A stretch of 64,000 nt of DNA from Aquabacterium sp. J223. GTDB taxonomy: Bacteria; Pseudomonadota; Gammaproteobacteria; Burkholderiales; Burkholderiaceae_C. A program made the translations under genes and the position numbers. Positions 2,831 to 40,648 of this stretch are shown piece after piece. Positions within the stretch are counted from its first letter, which is position 1, and every line of letters begins with the position of its first letter. The notes beneath the pieces are model-generated. The model was not told the DNA's origin. It saw nothing but the letters and a program-made list of their open reading frames with translations, and ran no database searches. Where the stretch lies: contig NZ_CP088297.1 in NCBI RefSeq assembly GCF_024666615.1, positions 2,170,001-2,234,000 of the forward strand, in the 5' to 3' direction.

Positions 2831-4015
2831 ATGAGCCAAGAAGACATCGTCATCGTCGCCGCCGCCCGCACCGCGGTGGGCAAGTTCGGCGGCACGCTGG
2901 CCAAGACGCCGGCGGCCGAGTTGGGCGCCACCGTCATCAAGGCACTGCTGGAGCGCAGCGGTCTCGCCGGGGAGCAGATCGGCGAGGTCATCCTCGGCCA
3001 GGTGCTGCAGGCCGGCACCGGCCAGAACCCGGCGCGCCAGGCGGTCATCAAGTCGGGCCTGCCGCAGGCGGTGCCGGCGATGACCATCAACAAGGTCTGC
3101 GGCTCGGGCCTGAAGGCGGTGATGCTGGCCGCCCAGGCCATCCGCGACGGCGACAGCGAGATCGTCATCGCCGGCGGCCAGGAGAGCATGAGCCTGTCGC
3201 CGCACGTGCTGCAGGGCAGCCGCGACGGCCAGCGCATGGGCGACTGGAAGATGGTCGACTCGATGATCACCGACGGCCTGTGGGACGTGTACAACCAGTA
3301 CCACATGGGCATCACCGCCGAGAACGTGGCCAAGAAGTACGGCATCGGCCGCGAGGCGCAGGACGCGCTGGCGCTGGCCAGCCAGCAGAAGGCTGCCGCC
3401 GCCCAGGAGGCCGGCCGCTTCAAGGACGAGATCGTGCCGGTGTTGATTCCCCAGAAGAAGGGCGACCCGATCGTCTTCGCCGCCGACGAGTTCATCAACA
3501 AGAAGACCAGCGCCGAGGCGCTGGCCGGCCTGCGCCCGGCCTTCGACAAGGCGGGCAGCGTGACCGCGGGCAACGCCTCCGGCCTGAACGACGGCGCCGC
3601 CGGCGTGGTGGTGATGAGCGCGAAGAAGGCGCAGGCGCTGGGCCTGAAGCCGCTGGCGCGCATCGCCAGCTATGCCAGCGCCGGCCTCGACCCGGCCATC
3701 ATGGGCATGGGGCCGGTGCCCGCGGCGCGCAAGGCGCTGGAGCGGGCGGGCTGGAAGCCGGCCGACCTGGACCTGCTGGAAATCAACGAGGCGTTCGCCG
3801 CGCAGGCCTGCGCCGTGCACCAGGAGATGGGCTGGGACACCAGCAAGGTGAACGTCAACGGCGGCGCCATCGCCATCGGCCATCCGATCGGTGCCTCCGG
3901 CTGCCGCATCCTGGTGACACTGCTGCACGAGATGCAGAAGCGCGATGCGAAGAAGGGCATCGCCTCGCTGTGCATCGGCGGTGGCATGGGCGTTGCGTTG
4001 ACCGTCGAGCGCTGA
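2831..4015 (+). CDS. phaA: Acetyl-CoA acetyltransferase (beta-ketothiolase)
   Basis: Condenses two acetyl-CoA to acetoacetyl-CoA, the first step of PHB synthesis. The product is 394 residues, the normal thiolase length. The active-site Cys lies in [11 protein letters not shown] near residue 90, the catalytic His in [14 protein letters not shown] and the second Cys in [10 protein letters not shown] near the C-terminus. The ATG at 2831 follows GGAGAC at 2821-2826 and lies 59 bases after the phaC stop. An upstream in-frame extension exists but reads through the phaC end and is not family-like. Co-transcription with phaC is likely. Confidence 0.96.
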
Positions 4016-36376: not shown

Positions 36377-38812
36377 TCAGGCGGGTTGCAGGGGGATGAA
36401 CTGGCGGGTGTCCACCGCGGCCTTGTCGAACTCGAACCAGGGGTCGGGTTCGCCGTCGAGCGAGAACTGCAGCTTGGCCCAGAGCTGGCGGCGCAGGTCG
36501 TCGTCCTCGAGGATCTTCTTCTTCACGTAGTCCAGGCCGACGCGGTTGATGTAGTGGCAGGTGCGCTCCAGGTACCAGCCCTCCTCGCGGTAGAGCTGGA
36601 GGAAGGCGCCGGAGTACTCCAGCACCTCCGCCGGCGTCTTCAGCTTGACGAAGAAGTGCGCCACCTCGGTCTTGATGCCGCCGTTGCCGCCGACGTAGAT
36701 CTCCCAGCCCGAATCGACGCCGATCACGCCGACGTCCTTGATGCCGGACTCCGCGCAGTTGCGCGGGCAGCCGCTGACGGCGAGCTTGACCTTGTGCGGC
36801 GCGTACATGCGCCACAGCGCACGCTCCAGGTCCTTGCCCATCTGGGTGGAGTCCTGGGTGCCGAAGCGGCACCACTCGCTGCCCACGCAGGTCTTCACCG
36901 TGCGCAGCGCCTTGGCGTAGGCGTGCCCCGAGGCCATGCCGATGTCCTTCCAGACGTTGACCAGGTCCTCCTTCTTCACGCCCAGCAGGTCGATGCGCTG
37001 GCCGCCGGTCACCTTGACGGTGGGGATCTTGTACTTGTCCACCGCGTCGGCGATGCGGCGCAGTTCGTCGGCGGTGGTCTCGCCGCCCCACATGCGCGGC
37101 ACCACGCTGTAGGTGCCGTCCTTCTGGATGTTGGCGTGGCTGCGCTCGTTGATGAAGCGGCTCTGCGGGTCGTCCTGCGCTTCCTTCGGCCAGGTGCTGA
37201 TCAGGTAGTAGTTCAGCGCCGGACGGCAGGTGGCGCAGCCGTTGGGCGTGCGCCAGCCCAGGCGCTTGTGCACCTCGGCGATGGTCAGCAGGTGGTCGGC
37301 GCGGATGGCCTCGCGGGCGTCCTGGTGGCTGGCGTCGGTGCAGCCGCACATCGCCTTCTTGGTCGGCGGCTTGGAGTAGTCGCCGCCGGCGGTGAACATC
37401 AGCAGCTGCTCGACCAGGCCGGTGCAGGAGCCGCAGCTGGCGCTGGCCTTGGTGTGCTTGCGCACCTCATCCAGCGTGAACAGGCCCTTCTCCTTGATGG
37501 CCTTGCAGATGGCGCCCTTGTTGACGCCGTTGCAGCCGCAGACCTCGTCGGTGTCGGCCATCGCCGCGGCCTTGCTGTGGCCTTCGTGGCCGACGTCGCC
37601 GATGTTGGATTCGCCGAACATCAGCTTGTCGCGGATGTCGTGCACCGCGCGGCCCTCGCGCAGCAGCTTGAAGTACCAGGAGCCGTCCACCGTGTCGCCG
37701 TACAGGCAGGCGCCGATGAGCTTGTCGTCCTTCAGCACCAGCTTCTTGTAGACGCCGCCGGCGGCGTCGCTCAGCACCACCTCCTCGCAGTCGGGGCCGC
37801 CGGTAAAGTTGCCGGCCGAGAACAGGTCGATGCCGGTGACCTTGAGCTTGGTCGAGACCTGGCTGCCGGTGTACAGGCCGATGCCGAACTCGGCCAGGTG
37901 GGTGGCGCAGACCCGGCCCTGCTCGAACAGCGGCGCCACCAGGCCGTAGGCGATGCCCCGGTGGGCGGCGCATTCGCCCACCGCATAGATGCGCGCGTCG
38001 GTCACGGTCTGCAGGGTGTCGGTGACGACGATGCCGCGGTTGCAGTGCAGGCCGCTCTTTTCGGCCAGCTCGGTGTTCGGCCGGATGCCCGCGGCCATCA
38101 CCACCAGGTCGGCCGGGATGGCGCTGCCGTCCTTGAAGCGGACGGAGCCGACGCGCCCGTCCTCGGCGGGCAGCAGCGCTTCGGTGTGGGCCGAGAGGCG
38201 GAACTTGAGCCCGCGCGCTTCCAGCGACTTCTGCAGCAGGCGTCCGGCGGTCTCGTCGAGCTGCCGTTCCATCAGCCAGGGCGAGATGTGGACCACCGTC
38301 ACGTCCATGCCGCGCAACATCAGGCCGTTGGCCGCCTCCAGGCCGAGCAGGCCGCCGCCGATGACCACCGCGTGCCGGTGCGTCTTCGCCGTCTCGATCA
38401 TTGTGTCGGTGTCGGCGATGTCGCGGTACGCGATGACGCCCGGCAGGTCCTTGCCCGGCACCGGCAGGATGAAGGGGTTGGAGCCGGTGGCCAGCAGCAG
38501 GCGGTCGTACTCCGCCTCGGTGCCGTCCTCCGCCCGCACGACGCGGCGCCGGCGGTCGATCTGCACCACCTTCTTGCCGCGGTGCAGGGTGATGCCGTGC
38601 TCCTCGTACCACGCCAGCGGGTTGAGGATGATCTCGTCGATCGTCTGCTCACCGGCGAGCACCGGCGACAGCAGGATGCGGTTGTAGTTCGGGTGCGGCT
38701 CGGCACCGAAGATCGTCACCTCGTACAGATCGGGCGCGATCTTCAACAGCTCCTCGATCGTGCGGACACCGGCCATGCCGTTGCCCACCATCACCAGCTT
38801 CATCTTCTTCAT
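36377..38812 (-). CDS. nirB: Nitrite reductase (NADH) large subunit
   Basis: Six-electron reduction of nitrite to ammonium in the cytoplasm. The protein is 811 residues, usual length. An FAD-binding N-terminus (MVGNGMAGVRTIEELL) and an NADH-binding motif (VVIGGGLLGLEAANGL) are followed by a BFD [2Fe-2S] domain (CGCNGVNKGAICKAI, then SCGSCTGL). The siroheme/[4Fe-4S] half has CVGSEWC and SGCPRNC. It heads the operon nirB-nirD-nasA-ybiB-cobA. The unusual leader upstream suggests nitrate/nitrogen control. Confidence 0.96.
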   Translation of the reverse strand: MKKMKLVMVGNGMAGVRTIEELLKIAPDLYEVTIFGAEPHPNYNRILLSPVLAGEQTIDEIILNPLAWYEEHGITLHRGKKVVQIDRRRRVVRAEDGTEAEYDRLLLATGSNPFILPVPGKDLPGVIAYRDIADTDTMIETAKTHRHAVVIGGGLLGLEAANGLMLRGMDVTVVHISPWLMERQLDETAGRLLQKSLEARGLKFRLSAHTEALLPAEDGRVGSVRFKDGSAIPADLVVMAAGIRPNTELAEKSGLHCNRGIVVTDTLQTVTDARIYAVGECAAHRGIAYGLVAPLFEQGRVCATHLAEFGIGLYTGSQVSTKLKVTGIDLFSAGNFTGGPDCEEVVLSDAAGGVYKKLVLKDDKLIGACLYGDTVDGSWYFKLLREGRAVHDIRDKLMFGESNIGDVGHEGHSKAAAMADTDEVCGCNGVNKGAICKAIKEKGLFTLDEVRKHTKASASCGSCTGLVEQLLMFTAGGDYSKPPTKKAMCGCTDASHQDAREAIRADHLLTIAEVHKRLGWRTPNGCATCRPALNYYLISTWPKEAQDDPQSRFINERSHANIQKDGTYSVVPRMWGGETTADELRRIADAVDKYKIPTVKVTGGQRIDLLGVKKEDLVNVWKDIGMASGHAYAKALRTVKTCVGSEWCRFGTQDSTQMGKDLERALWRMYAPHKVKLAVSGCPRNCAESGIKDVGVIGVDSGWEIYVGGNGGIKTEVAHFFVKLKTPAEVLEYSGAFLQLYREEGWYLERTCHYINRVGLDYVKKKILEDDDLRRQLWAKLQFSLDGEPDPWFEFDKAAVDTRQFIPLQPA

Positions 38813-38965
38813 GGCGTCGCTCGCTTCGGGTCACACCAGGGGCGCTGCACGGCAGGACGGGCGCACGCGCAACGGTGCGGCCCGGTCCATGGCGACCGGC
38901 AGTGGGAGGGAACAGGGAGGGGGACAGTCGGGCTCACGTGGCGCTCCGTTTCGCTTGCACGAAAC

Positions 38966-38992
38966 CCGCCGGGGCCAGAGGCCGCATGGCGG
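38966..38992 (-). terminator. Candidate leader terminator/attenuator hairpin upstream of nirB
   Basis: Minus-strand outer stem CCGCC (38992-38988) with GGCGG (38970-38966) and inner GGCC-TCT-GGCC. It is followed by GTTTCGTG, a weak U-containing tail. It lies 18 nt beyond hexaloop hairpin 2, where an antitermination target would be expected. The poor U-tract keeps confidence low. Confidence 0.35.
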
Positions 38993-39010
38993 TTCAAGGA
39001 GGCACATCGG

Positions 39011-39074
39011 CTGCGCACTGCGGTGTGCGCAGGACCGGCGTTGCGGTGCCCAATCCGGGCGCGACGCTGCGCCC
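39011..39074 (-). promoter_or_regulatory. Tandem hexaloop hairpins in the nirB leader, ANTAR (NasT/NasR)-type RNA target
   Basis: Read on the minus strand: hairpin 1 GGGCGC-AGCGTC-GCGCCC (39074-39057), a 24-nt linker, then hairpin 2 CTGCGCAC-ACCGCA-GTGCGCAG (39032-39011). Stems are perfect (6 and 8 bp), both loops have six bases, and both have A at loop position 1 and G at position 4. That pair of features is the known recognition signature for ANTAR antiterminator proteins, including NasT and NasR, which control nitrate assimilation operons. The genes nasS/nasT are not in this window. Confidence 0.65.
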
Positions 39075-39085
39075 GCGCATTGCAA

Positions 39086-39101
39086 TGCAGCATCCATGCC
39101 A
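39086..39101 (-). promoter_or_regulatory. Sigma-54-like -24/-12 promoter for nirB
   Basis: The minus strand reads TGGCATGGATGCTGCA, matching the TGGCACG-N4-TTGCA pattern with the invariant GG and GC spaced by ten bases and two mismatches. The predicted start is near 39075, one base before the first leader hairpin. Short GC-rich matches arise by chance, so this needs experimental support; the positional fit with the leader raises it above background. Confidence 0.4.
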
Positions 39102-39319
39102 CCCGGCCTTGCCTCGGCAAGGGCGACGGGGCCGCTGTGGCGAATGCGCGGCGGTGGTGCGGCCGCTGTCATCCGGTGCGCGGACTGCACCAGCGCGACA
39201 CGTGACGCCCGCGTTGGCCGACGGCGCAAGCCCCCGAGACCAGGGGGTCCACTTGCGGTGGCGTTGGCCGAAACAGGGGGCTGATACGATGCTTTCCCAA
39301 GTTCAAGCTAGGGATCGCT

Positions 39320-40426
39320 TTGAATGTGCGCGGGCCTGCACTTGCCTCGCACCGACCACCCGCCGACCATGCGCGGAGACCGACGCGCGGCGCCGGCCCC
39401 GCCTCCGCTGACGCCTTCTCGGATGCCCGATTCGCTTTCTCCCCCGCCGACGCCGATGCCAGCCAGGGCGTGCTGGGCGCCTTGCTCCCGGCGCTGCTCG
39501 AGCGCCAGGGGGCGATGCTGCTGCTGAAGGACGTGGGCAGCGGTCGTTACGTCTGGGTGAGCCCGGCCATGGTCGCCTGGCTCGGCCTGCCCGCCGATCA
39601 GGTGCGCGGCCGCACCGACGTCGAGATCTTCGAAGGTGCGGTGGCCGCCAGCCTGCGCGCCGCCGACCAGACGGCGCTGTCGCACGGCGAAGGCGTGTTC
39701 GCCAGCGAGCACAAGTTCGACTGGCACGGGGTGCGGCAGGAGCTGTCGGTGCTGCGTGCGGTGACCCGGGGCGAGGACGGTCGGCGCTGGCTGTGCAGCC
39801 TGTGGACCGACCAGCGCGCCCACCGCGGCCGCGAGGCGCAGTTGCGCACGGCGCTCGAGCAGCTCGAGCAGCAGCAGCGCGCCAACGAACAGCTGCGGCG
39901 GGAGCTGCAGGAGCAGTCGGTGCGCGACCGCGTCACCGGGCTGTACTCGCGCGGCCATTTCGACGACCAGCTGCGCCGGGAGGTCGACCTTTCGACCCGC
40001 GAGCACCGCGAGTTCTCGATGGTGCTGATCGGCCTGGACCCGCCCACCGACCGGGTGCGCGACCGCGGCGAACAGGCCCAGGAGCGTGTGCTCGAGGCGG
40101 TGGGCCGGCTCCTGCGCAGCAACACCCGGGCGATGGACGCGTCCAGCCGCATCGACGAGCAGCGCTTCGCGGTGCTGCTGTCGGGTGTCGGGCTGGCCAC
40201 CGCGCATGCCCGCATGGAAGGCCTGCGCCGGCAGTGCGCCACACAGATCGTCGTGCTCGACGGCGAGGACCTCGGCTTCACCGTGTCGATGGGCGTGGCC
40301 AGCTTCCCGCACACCGCCGTGTCCCAGGCCGACCTGGTCGACGCCTGCGAGACCGCGCTGACCGAAGCCCGCCGCCGGGGTGGGAACCAGGTGACGCTGG
40401 CCAGCATCCGCTTCGACGCGGAATGA
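39320..40426 (+). CDS. PAS-like sensor with degenerate GGDEF domain
   Basis: A 368-residue soluble protein. A PAS-like domain lies at about residues 50-170 (RYVWVSPAMVAWLGLPADQVRGRTDVEIFE), a Gln/Glu-rich coiled-coil linker at about 175-200, then a GGDEF-fold domain (VRDRVTGLYSRGHFDDQL ... SMGVASFPHTAV). The signature motif position reads RIDEQRFAVLL in place of RxGGDEFxxLL, so diguanylate cyclase activity is very unlikely; a binding or regulatory role is more plausible. The start is TTG 39320, with GTG 39326 possible. Divergent from nirB and convergent with the 6S RNA gene. Confidence 0.8.
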   Translation: MNVRGPALASHRPPADHARRPTRGAGPASADAFSDARFAFSPADADASQGVLGALLPALLERQGAMLLLKDVGSGRYVWVSPAMVAWLGLPADQVRGRTDVEIFEGAVAASLRAADQTALSHGEGVFASEHKFDWHGVRQELSVLRAVTRGEDGRRWLCSLWTDQRAHRGREAQLRTALEQLEQQQRANEQLRRELQEQSVRDRVTGLYSRGHFDDQLRREVDLSTREHREFSMVLIGLDPPTDRVRDRGEQAQERVLEAVGRLLRSNTRAMDASSRIDEQRFAVLLSGVGLATAHARMEGLRRQCATQIVVLDGEDLGFTVSMGVASFPHTAVSQADLVDACETALTEARRRGGNQVTLASIRFDAE

Positions 40427-40465: not shown

Positions 40466-40648
40466 GAAGGTGTTCGCCGCGAGCCGCGGGCCGCATTCCT
40501 GAACCCAGGTGGATTCAGGTGGGCGAGGTCAGCCGGGCATCGGGTTCATCTGACGCGAGACGATCGCACCAGCCCGGCAATGTTCCAAGCCCTTGCTCAA
40601 AGAGCATCGGTTCAAGGAAATAAAAACCCGCGCGAACGCGGCGAACGG
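40466..40648 (-). ncRNA. ssrS: 6S RNA
   Basis: Regulatory RNA that binds sigma-70 RNA polymerase in stationary phase. Both ends pair: 5' GTTCGCCGCG with 3' CGCGGCGAAC, and 5' CGCGGG with 3' CCCGCG. The 5' part contains CCTTGAACCGAT (compare E. coli CCCTGAGCCGAT). The 3' part contains the hairpin CACCTGAATCCACCTGGGTT followed by CAGGAATGCGGC, matching the E. coli CACCTTGAACC...GGGTTCAAGG...GCGGC segment. The length of about 183 nt is typical. It lies directly downstream of zapA, the conserved zapA-ssrS order, with a -10 element just before and a terminator just after. The ends are estimated. Confidence 0.85.

Follow-up and report, generated by a model that had tools for sequence, protein, structure and literature searches.

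A probable ANTAR-type leader behind a sigma-54-type promoter upstream of nirB in Aquabacterium sp. J223 and its possible output at translation initiation

The nirB locus and its leader

The window analysed here is a stretch of 64,000 nucleotides from Aquabacterium sp. J223 (contig NZ_CP088297.1, positions 2,170,001 to 2,234,000). Its minus strand carries the gene series nirB-nirD-nasA-ybiB-cobA, in which nirB and nirD are followed by genes for an assimilatory-type molybdopterin reductase, a glycosyltransferase-3-like protein and a tetrapyrrole methylase. The closest NirB among the named genomes is that of Piscinibacter sp. MQ-18 (87%). The leader 5' of nirB contains a sigma-54-type promoter, two hairpins with loops of six nucleotides and a candidate leader ORF (Table 1). 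The window also holds a 6S RNA gene at 40470-40647 on the minus strand (Rfam RF00013, 53.4 bits).

Table 1. Features of the nirB leader, with positions in the window
Feature	Position	Strand	Basis
Sigma-54-type promoter TGGCATGGATGCTGCA, GG-N10-GC	39086..39101	-	Sequence; spacing to hairpin 1 common to relatives
Hairpin P1, 7 bp, loop AGCGTC (39068-39063)	39056..39075	-	Sequence; compensatory changes in family alignment
GGGCAC, which may be the 5' arm of an outer stem, P2b	39046..39051	-	
Hairpin P2, 8 bp, loop ACCGCA (39024-39019)	39011..39032	-	Sequence; family alignment; ensemble probability 0.97
Tail AUGUGCCUCC, 3' arm of P2b (GUGCCU 39005-39000) or anti-Shine-Dalgarno strand (AUGUG 39007-39003 and CUCC 39001-38998)	38998..39007	-	
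GC-rich stem (CCGCC...GGCGG, then GTTTCG)	38966..38992	-	Sequence; not found as terminator
Small hairpin GUUUCGU-GCAA-GCGAAAC adjoining ribosome site	38948..38965	-	Minimum-energy structure
GGAG, ribosome site of leader ORF; predicted pairing with CUCC, probability 0.81	38944..38947	-	
Candidate leader ORF, GTG start at 38937, 42 codons, TGA stop overlapping nirB ATG	38809..38937	-	Translation
nirB, first full-size gene of nirB-nirD-nasA-ybiB-cobA	36377..38812	-	

The promoter-like site matches the sigma-54 consensus TGGC...GC, and transcription is predicted to start at about 39075, counting 12 nt from the C of the -12 element, which is the first base of the 7-bp stem of P1. Both hairpin loops carry A at position 1 and G at position 4 (A1/G4), and they are separated by a gap between P1 and P2 of 24 nt if P1 is counted as a 6-bp stem or 23 nt if it is counted as a 7-bp stem. 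A first-pass annotation of this DNA had reported the GG-N10-GC site and the second hairpin with its stem of 8 bp and its loop, and the sequence agrees with it on both. The first hairpin it had described has the loop that it gave but a stem one base pair longer than the 6 bp it stated, and the terminator-like stem it had placed downstream exists as a GC-rich stem in which the terminator search did not detect an intrinsic terminator.

When both strands of the window were searched for pairs of hairpins with A1/G4 loops (stems of at least 5 bp, gap of 3-40), the pair near nirB was the only one. Markov sequences matched in dinucleotide composition yielded 0.43 pairs per window at this loose threshold, and a pair with stems of 6 and 8 bp occurred in 0 of 30. 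As a whole, the leader folds with an unremarkable energy (z 0.19), which is uninformative on its own. Rfam gave the leader no match at the gathering threshold in a search of the whole window, and with E up to 10 it returned two weak, chance-like matches in 38790-39400. A search of the genome with a loosely defined DNA pattern was discarded, as the 53 places it returned were mostly meaningless.

ANTAR proteins encoded in the genome

A profile search found three ANTAR matches over the cut-off in the genome. One is NasT (210 amino acids, a receiver-like part plus ANTAR, L004:8007-8636, ANTAR 78 bits), the presence of whose gene had been named as a check in the first-pass annotation, and this gene adjoins the nitrate-transporter cluster nrtABC. 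The second strong match is a protein of 431 amino acids with ANTAR at residues 131-184 and two PilJ stretches, the gene for which is divergent to a narK-like transporter gene. This PilJ-type protein has a receiver-like start, with residues 17-187 aligning to 1s8n, an antiterminator whose structure is known. The match at its C-terminus is to chain 6gcv_A, a 'Chemotaxis transducer' (E 1e-4), which is McpN. Nitrate is bound by PilJ of McpN according to the title of a reference in PMC8199190. The third ANTAR match is weak and lies 3' of a histidine kinase. Within the family, the PilJ-type ANTAR protein was found in 70 of 399 genomes.

The first-pass annotation had assigned control of nirB to NasS together with NasT. 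The NasS part of that proposal is unsupported, as no candidate for NasS, which is related to NrtA but cytoplasmic, was seen among the eight NMT1_2 matches of the genome, of which the two strong ones were inspected. Both of these have twin-arginine starts by eye and look exported, one of them with a sub-threshold TAT_signal match. A gene for a PP2C phosphatase-protein kinase fusion adjoins the nitrate genes (L005:4942-6651) and is located between narK and nirB in relatives.

Conservation of the double hairpin

The double hairpin is present in 35 of 47 distinct sigma-54-anchored leaders compared with 30 of 9,400 shuffles. Of 29 named divergent loci, this set took in 17; with the remaining 12 (L070 plus 11 resembling Variovorax), none of which had given a double hairpin except for an uncertain pick in L080, the proportion would drop to about 35 of 59. 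Among the leaders with the cut-off score of 20 or more, 35 in all, P1 starts 7-18 nt past the promoter 16-mer and the gap between P1 and P2 is 17-27 nt. Comparison of sequences thus brings out the promoter, P1, P2 and their spacing. The loops of the relatives begin with A or G, and their conservation is partly a product of how the hairpins were picked, since the finder demanded A or G at position 1 and G at position 4. The stems, whose conservation in related leaders the first-pass annotation had proposed as a check, carry compensatory changes.

The family alignment holds 31 of the 35 scoring leaders, with L168, L170, L171 and L173 dropped as near-duplicate or doubtful. Cells of the alignment are paired in 93% of cases for P1, 86% for P2 and 87% for P2b (88.5% overall), and both sides have changed in 5 of 7 pairs of P1, 5 of 8 pairs of P2 and all 4 pairs of P2b. 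The covariation score was reached by 0 of 500 column shuffles and slid versions scored far lower, figures which are inflated by relatedness. RNAalifold recovers P1 and P2 unaided, but not P2b. The candidate P2b arm of the window lies 13 nt 5' of P2 compared with 7-10 nt in most relatives, and because of this difference in register it is not seen in the columns of the alignment.

The idea that every leader adjoining a gene for the PilJ-type protein is of the window's type was rejected, since 21 of 64 such leaders lack the double hairpin. Eighteen of these 21 are L026 and named loci, mainly from Variovorax, which have P1 only, and the double-hairpin picks for the other 43 include plainly wrong ones (L080, L103, L115 and L174). 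The other three of the 21 (L180, L182 and L190) show, on visual inspection, a P2 with a bulge. In five Variovorax-like narK leaders (L073, L081, L097, L120 and L126), P1 is near-invariant (GCGGTGT-AACGAA-GCACCGC) and there is no hexaloop P2.

Genomic contexts of the leader type

Only three of 29 relatives (L033, L049 and L050) have a strict A1/G4 pair within about 620 nt 5' of nirB. The first impression of poor conservation that this gave was dropped, as the scarcity of pairs near nirB arises because the element mostly precedes narK or nrtA; in the named genome set the pairs are mostly at least 3 kb upstream of nirB. Both observations speak against an account of the element that involves nirB only. 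Two layouts are found in the family. In one, an ANTAR gene is followed by the leader and nrtABC, and in the other, a PilJ-type gene is divergent to the leader and narK, with nirB in place of narK in L050, L167, L183, L184, L185, L192 and L193. The window leader belongs to the leader kind of the second layout, most copies of which precede narK rather than nirB. At one locus from a Rhizobacter MAG (L055, about 3526-4001), a leader of the window's type is followed by an apparently broken narK start and then by nirB.

In the window's genome, a covariance model of the leader matches the nirB leader with 78.7 bits and the narK leader with 44.5 bits, both of which are training sequences, and the next match has 28 bits. 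The narK leader (L005:8017-8092, minus strand) is a decayed member of the type with the promoter TGGCACGGATGCTGCA. The covariance search across related genomes, another check put forward in the first-pass annotation, gave 48 matches in 46 of the 399 family genomes. Of these matches, 37 are divergent to a PilJ-type gene at 71-239 nt (within 400 nt), and seven lie directly 5' of nirB, at 44-225 nt, in genomes outside the training set. The remainder comprise the window's own leader, one match 5' of narK on a contig without a PilJ-type gene, and two further matches, in G066 (40.7 bits) and G058 (34.5 bits, E 0.0099). The PilJ-type protein is encoded in 38 of the 46 genomes with a match (Fisher p 5e-26, not corrected for relatedness), and no match occurs in 32 of the 70 genomes that encode it. 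The window leader is very probably an ANTAR-type leader.

The seven genomes with nirB leaders, all of which lack the PilJ-type protein, bear on which protein may read the leader. Five of them (G090, G102, G128, G275 and G329) have a full-length NasT, of 74-78% identity, as the sole strong ANTAR match. G108 has a NIT-ANTAR protein in this role, and in G096 the strong ANTAR match resembles NasT at the C-terminus only. In G108 the NIT-ANTAR (NasR-like) gene adjoins nrtA (L239). The leader type is thus tied to the PilJ-type protein yet able to be kept with NasT only, and NasT is a possible reader because it stands alone in the five. It is unlikely, nevertheless, that NasT alone reads the window leader with the PilJ-type protein serving only the neighbouring narK. 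The five genomes favour that arrangement, but the association of the leader type with the PilJ-type gene argues against it, as do the terminator kind of leader found between nasT and nrtA, where none of the model matches was placed, and the presence of both proteins in the window's genome.

Termination or translation

None of 47 leaders of the window's type has a stem of at least 8 bp followed by a U tract, versus 32 of 35 leaders located between an ANTAR gene and nrtA, with shuffles giving 4% and 5%, respectively. With 7-bp stems allowed the counts are 3 of 47 versus 35 of 35, and with a looser terminator rule they are 4 of 45 versus 35 of 35. The 35 nrtA leaders include several, such as L146, L148, L151 and L153, for which the ANTAR protein matches NasT at the C-terminus only, and which are probably NasR-like. 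The nrtA leaders follow the textbook design: in most of them, one side of the terminator consists of the P2 loop together with the 3' arm of that hairpin (AAAGGCGTCC). The scanner found no intrinsic terminator overlapping P2 in the window leader, though it also overlooked the stem in this genome's own nrtA leader, which has 9 bp and is followed by TTCGCTTT.

The second feature of the window's leader type that comparison brings out is the distance from P2 to the first start codon. In 36 of 47 leaders, with L180 dropped from this count as too short, the first start preceded by a ribosome site lies 45-63 nt past P2, as opposed to 14% in shuffles, the starts having been picked by a ribosome-site rule. 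The ORF that begins there is a short leader ORF, narK or nirB. In the window the first start is 73 nt past P2, outside this range. Short ORFs, 13-63 codons in length, occupy the equivalent site in the leaders of many relatives, and no clear sequence likeness was found among them.

Under classical ANTAR antitermination, the mode of control proposed for nirB in the first-pass annotation, the bound protein would block a terminator between P2 and nirB, which here would be a weak or Rho-dependent one. It is the mode of all characterised proteobacterial ANTAR leaders (PMC3369931), the nrtA leader of the window's own genome has the 9-bp stem described above, and terminator prediction may fail in GC-rich genomes, as PMC8164766 notes. 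Antitermination at nirB is nonetheless doubtful because no intrinsic terminator of 8 bp or more was found in any leader of the window's type; the contrast with the nrtA leaders holds at every stem threshold, the scanner result points the same way, and a constant distance to the start codon is unexpected under antitermination. The absence of a terminator and the fixed start distance are strong support for a translational output, and on balance the leader appears slightly more apt to act on translation than on termination. Three narK leaders beside a PilJ-type gene, those of Pelomonas, Mitsuaria and Roseateles (L070, L088 and L103), have P1 and, past it, a strong terminator with a U tract. The PilJ-type protein can thus act in other ways, because its gene adjoins leaders with U-tract terminators and leaders with P1 only.

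It is very unlikely that the window copy is a nonfunctional relic brought from the neighbourhood of narK by rearrangement, for although its nearest leaders are Methylibium-type narK leaders (L059 and L168), no ANTAR gene adjoins it and its start distance and P2b register are off, its stems and loops have no defects (score 30 versus 20-28 in most relatives), the narK copy of the genome is the more decayed of the two by the model scores of these two training sequences, and a comparable nirB leader is kept in seven other genomes.

Proposed mechanism

The reading favoured here, though only narrowly, is that of a sigma-54-transcribed leader read by an ANTAR protein with translation initiation as its output. 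Transcription from the sigma-54 promoter would yield a leader RNA that offers its first pair of hairpins as target to a nitrate-responsive ANTAR protein, which may be the PilJ-bearing protein encoded beside narK, NasT encoded beside nrtABC, or both. With no protein bound, the tail AUGUGCCUCC would pair with the ribosome site and GTG start of the leader ORF. Closure of the ribosome site would keep translation of nirB low, since the stop codon of the leader ORF overlaps the nirB start and the two would be coupled. Binding of the ANTAR protein to P1 and P2 would favour the outer stem P2b, which would capture the tail and free the ribosome site.

In leaders of the window's type the tail past P2 is often AUGUGCCUCC or AUGUAUCUCC. 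Pairing of the tail with the start region has a mean of 6.8 expected pairs versus 3.5 with a shuffled tail and is higher in 31 of 37 leaders, and its energy is -10.1 kcal/mol versus -6.8 for shuffled tails. Against tails swapped between leaders the energies are -10.1 and -9.2 kcal/mol, respectively, with the native tail better in 26 of 42 (p 0.017, not corrected for relatedness), a gain that is modest because CUCC and GGAG are common to many leaders. The window's own tail and start pair with -13.2 kcal/mol, among the best 5% for swapped partners. Folding of the regions from tail to start is not unusual (mean z -0.7). For P2b, the best-helix test gave 11.8 versus 11.3 for swaps, a small difference, and in the window P2b is weak, with a probability of 0.14 and with the closed form 6.6 kcal/mol better than the P2b form. 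A switch between P2b and the closed form is weakly supported.

A broader reading can be offered tentatively and with less confidence, namely that the terminator-less ANTAR subclass of the Burkholderiales is a two-state translational activator, in which one tail strand would pair backward with the linker as P2b in the open, protein-bound state or forward with the ribosome site in the closed state. Its reader would be an undescribed one-component nitrate sensor consisting of a receiver-like domain, ANTAR and two PilJ stretches, or NasT where that sensor is absent. If this were true, a single genome would have two ANTAR circuits, one acting by antitermination at nrtABC and the other on translation at narK and nirB.

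Comparison with known systems

Among papers listed by searches of an open-access library, no title or abstract opening describes an ANTAR-PilJ regulator or, for Burkholderiales, an ANTAR leader of nirB or narK that has no terminator. ANTAR proteins are known chiefly as antiterminators, and a terminator-less subclass tied to the start codon would show the module switching its output; the ANTAR protein with PilJ stretches is named here as a candidate nitrate sensor. The nasF leader of Klebsiella, which is transcribed from a sigma-54-dependent promoter, resembles the window leader in preceding nitrate genes, in its double hairpin and in having an ANTAR reader, as is proposed here. It differs in that its reader NasR is a NIT-ANTAR protein, in place of the PilJ-bearing protein or NasT proposed for the window, and in that the window leader has no terminator.

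The ANTAR-target RNA described for EutV, NasR and AmiR in PMC3369931 shares with the window leader the two hexaloop hairpins with A1 and G4 and the association with nitrogen genes and an ANTAR gene. The window leader departs from that description in having no intrinsic terminator overlapping P2, and its type further differs in allowing A or G at loop position 1 in relatives, in the possible P2b and in the fixed start distance. In the same paper, translation control was already suggested for some terminator-less ANTAR-target matches, and Burkholderia and nitrite reductase are named among the matches (Ramesh et al. 2012, PMC3369931). This 2012 suggestion would become testable in proteobacteria with the leaders described here.

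NasT is common to the window's genome and the NasS-NasT system of Paracoccus (PMC3795266), from which the genome differs in that its nasT adjoins nrtABC and in the lack of a visible NasS candidate among the two matches inspected. ANTAR translational control in mycobacteria and other actinobacteria (PMC8164766) likewise has its output at the translation start, as is proposed here. In those actinobacterial RNAs the ribosome site is inside the double hairpin and binding represses translation, whereas in the window leader the ribosome site lies about 64 nt past P2 and binding is proposed to activate.
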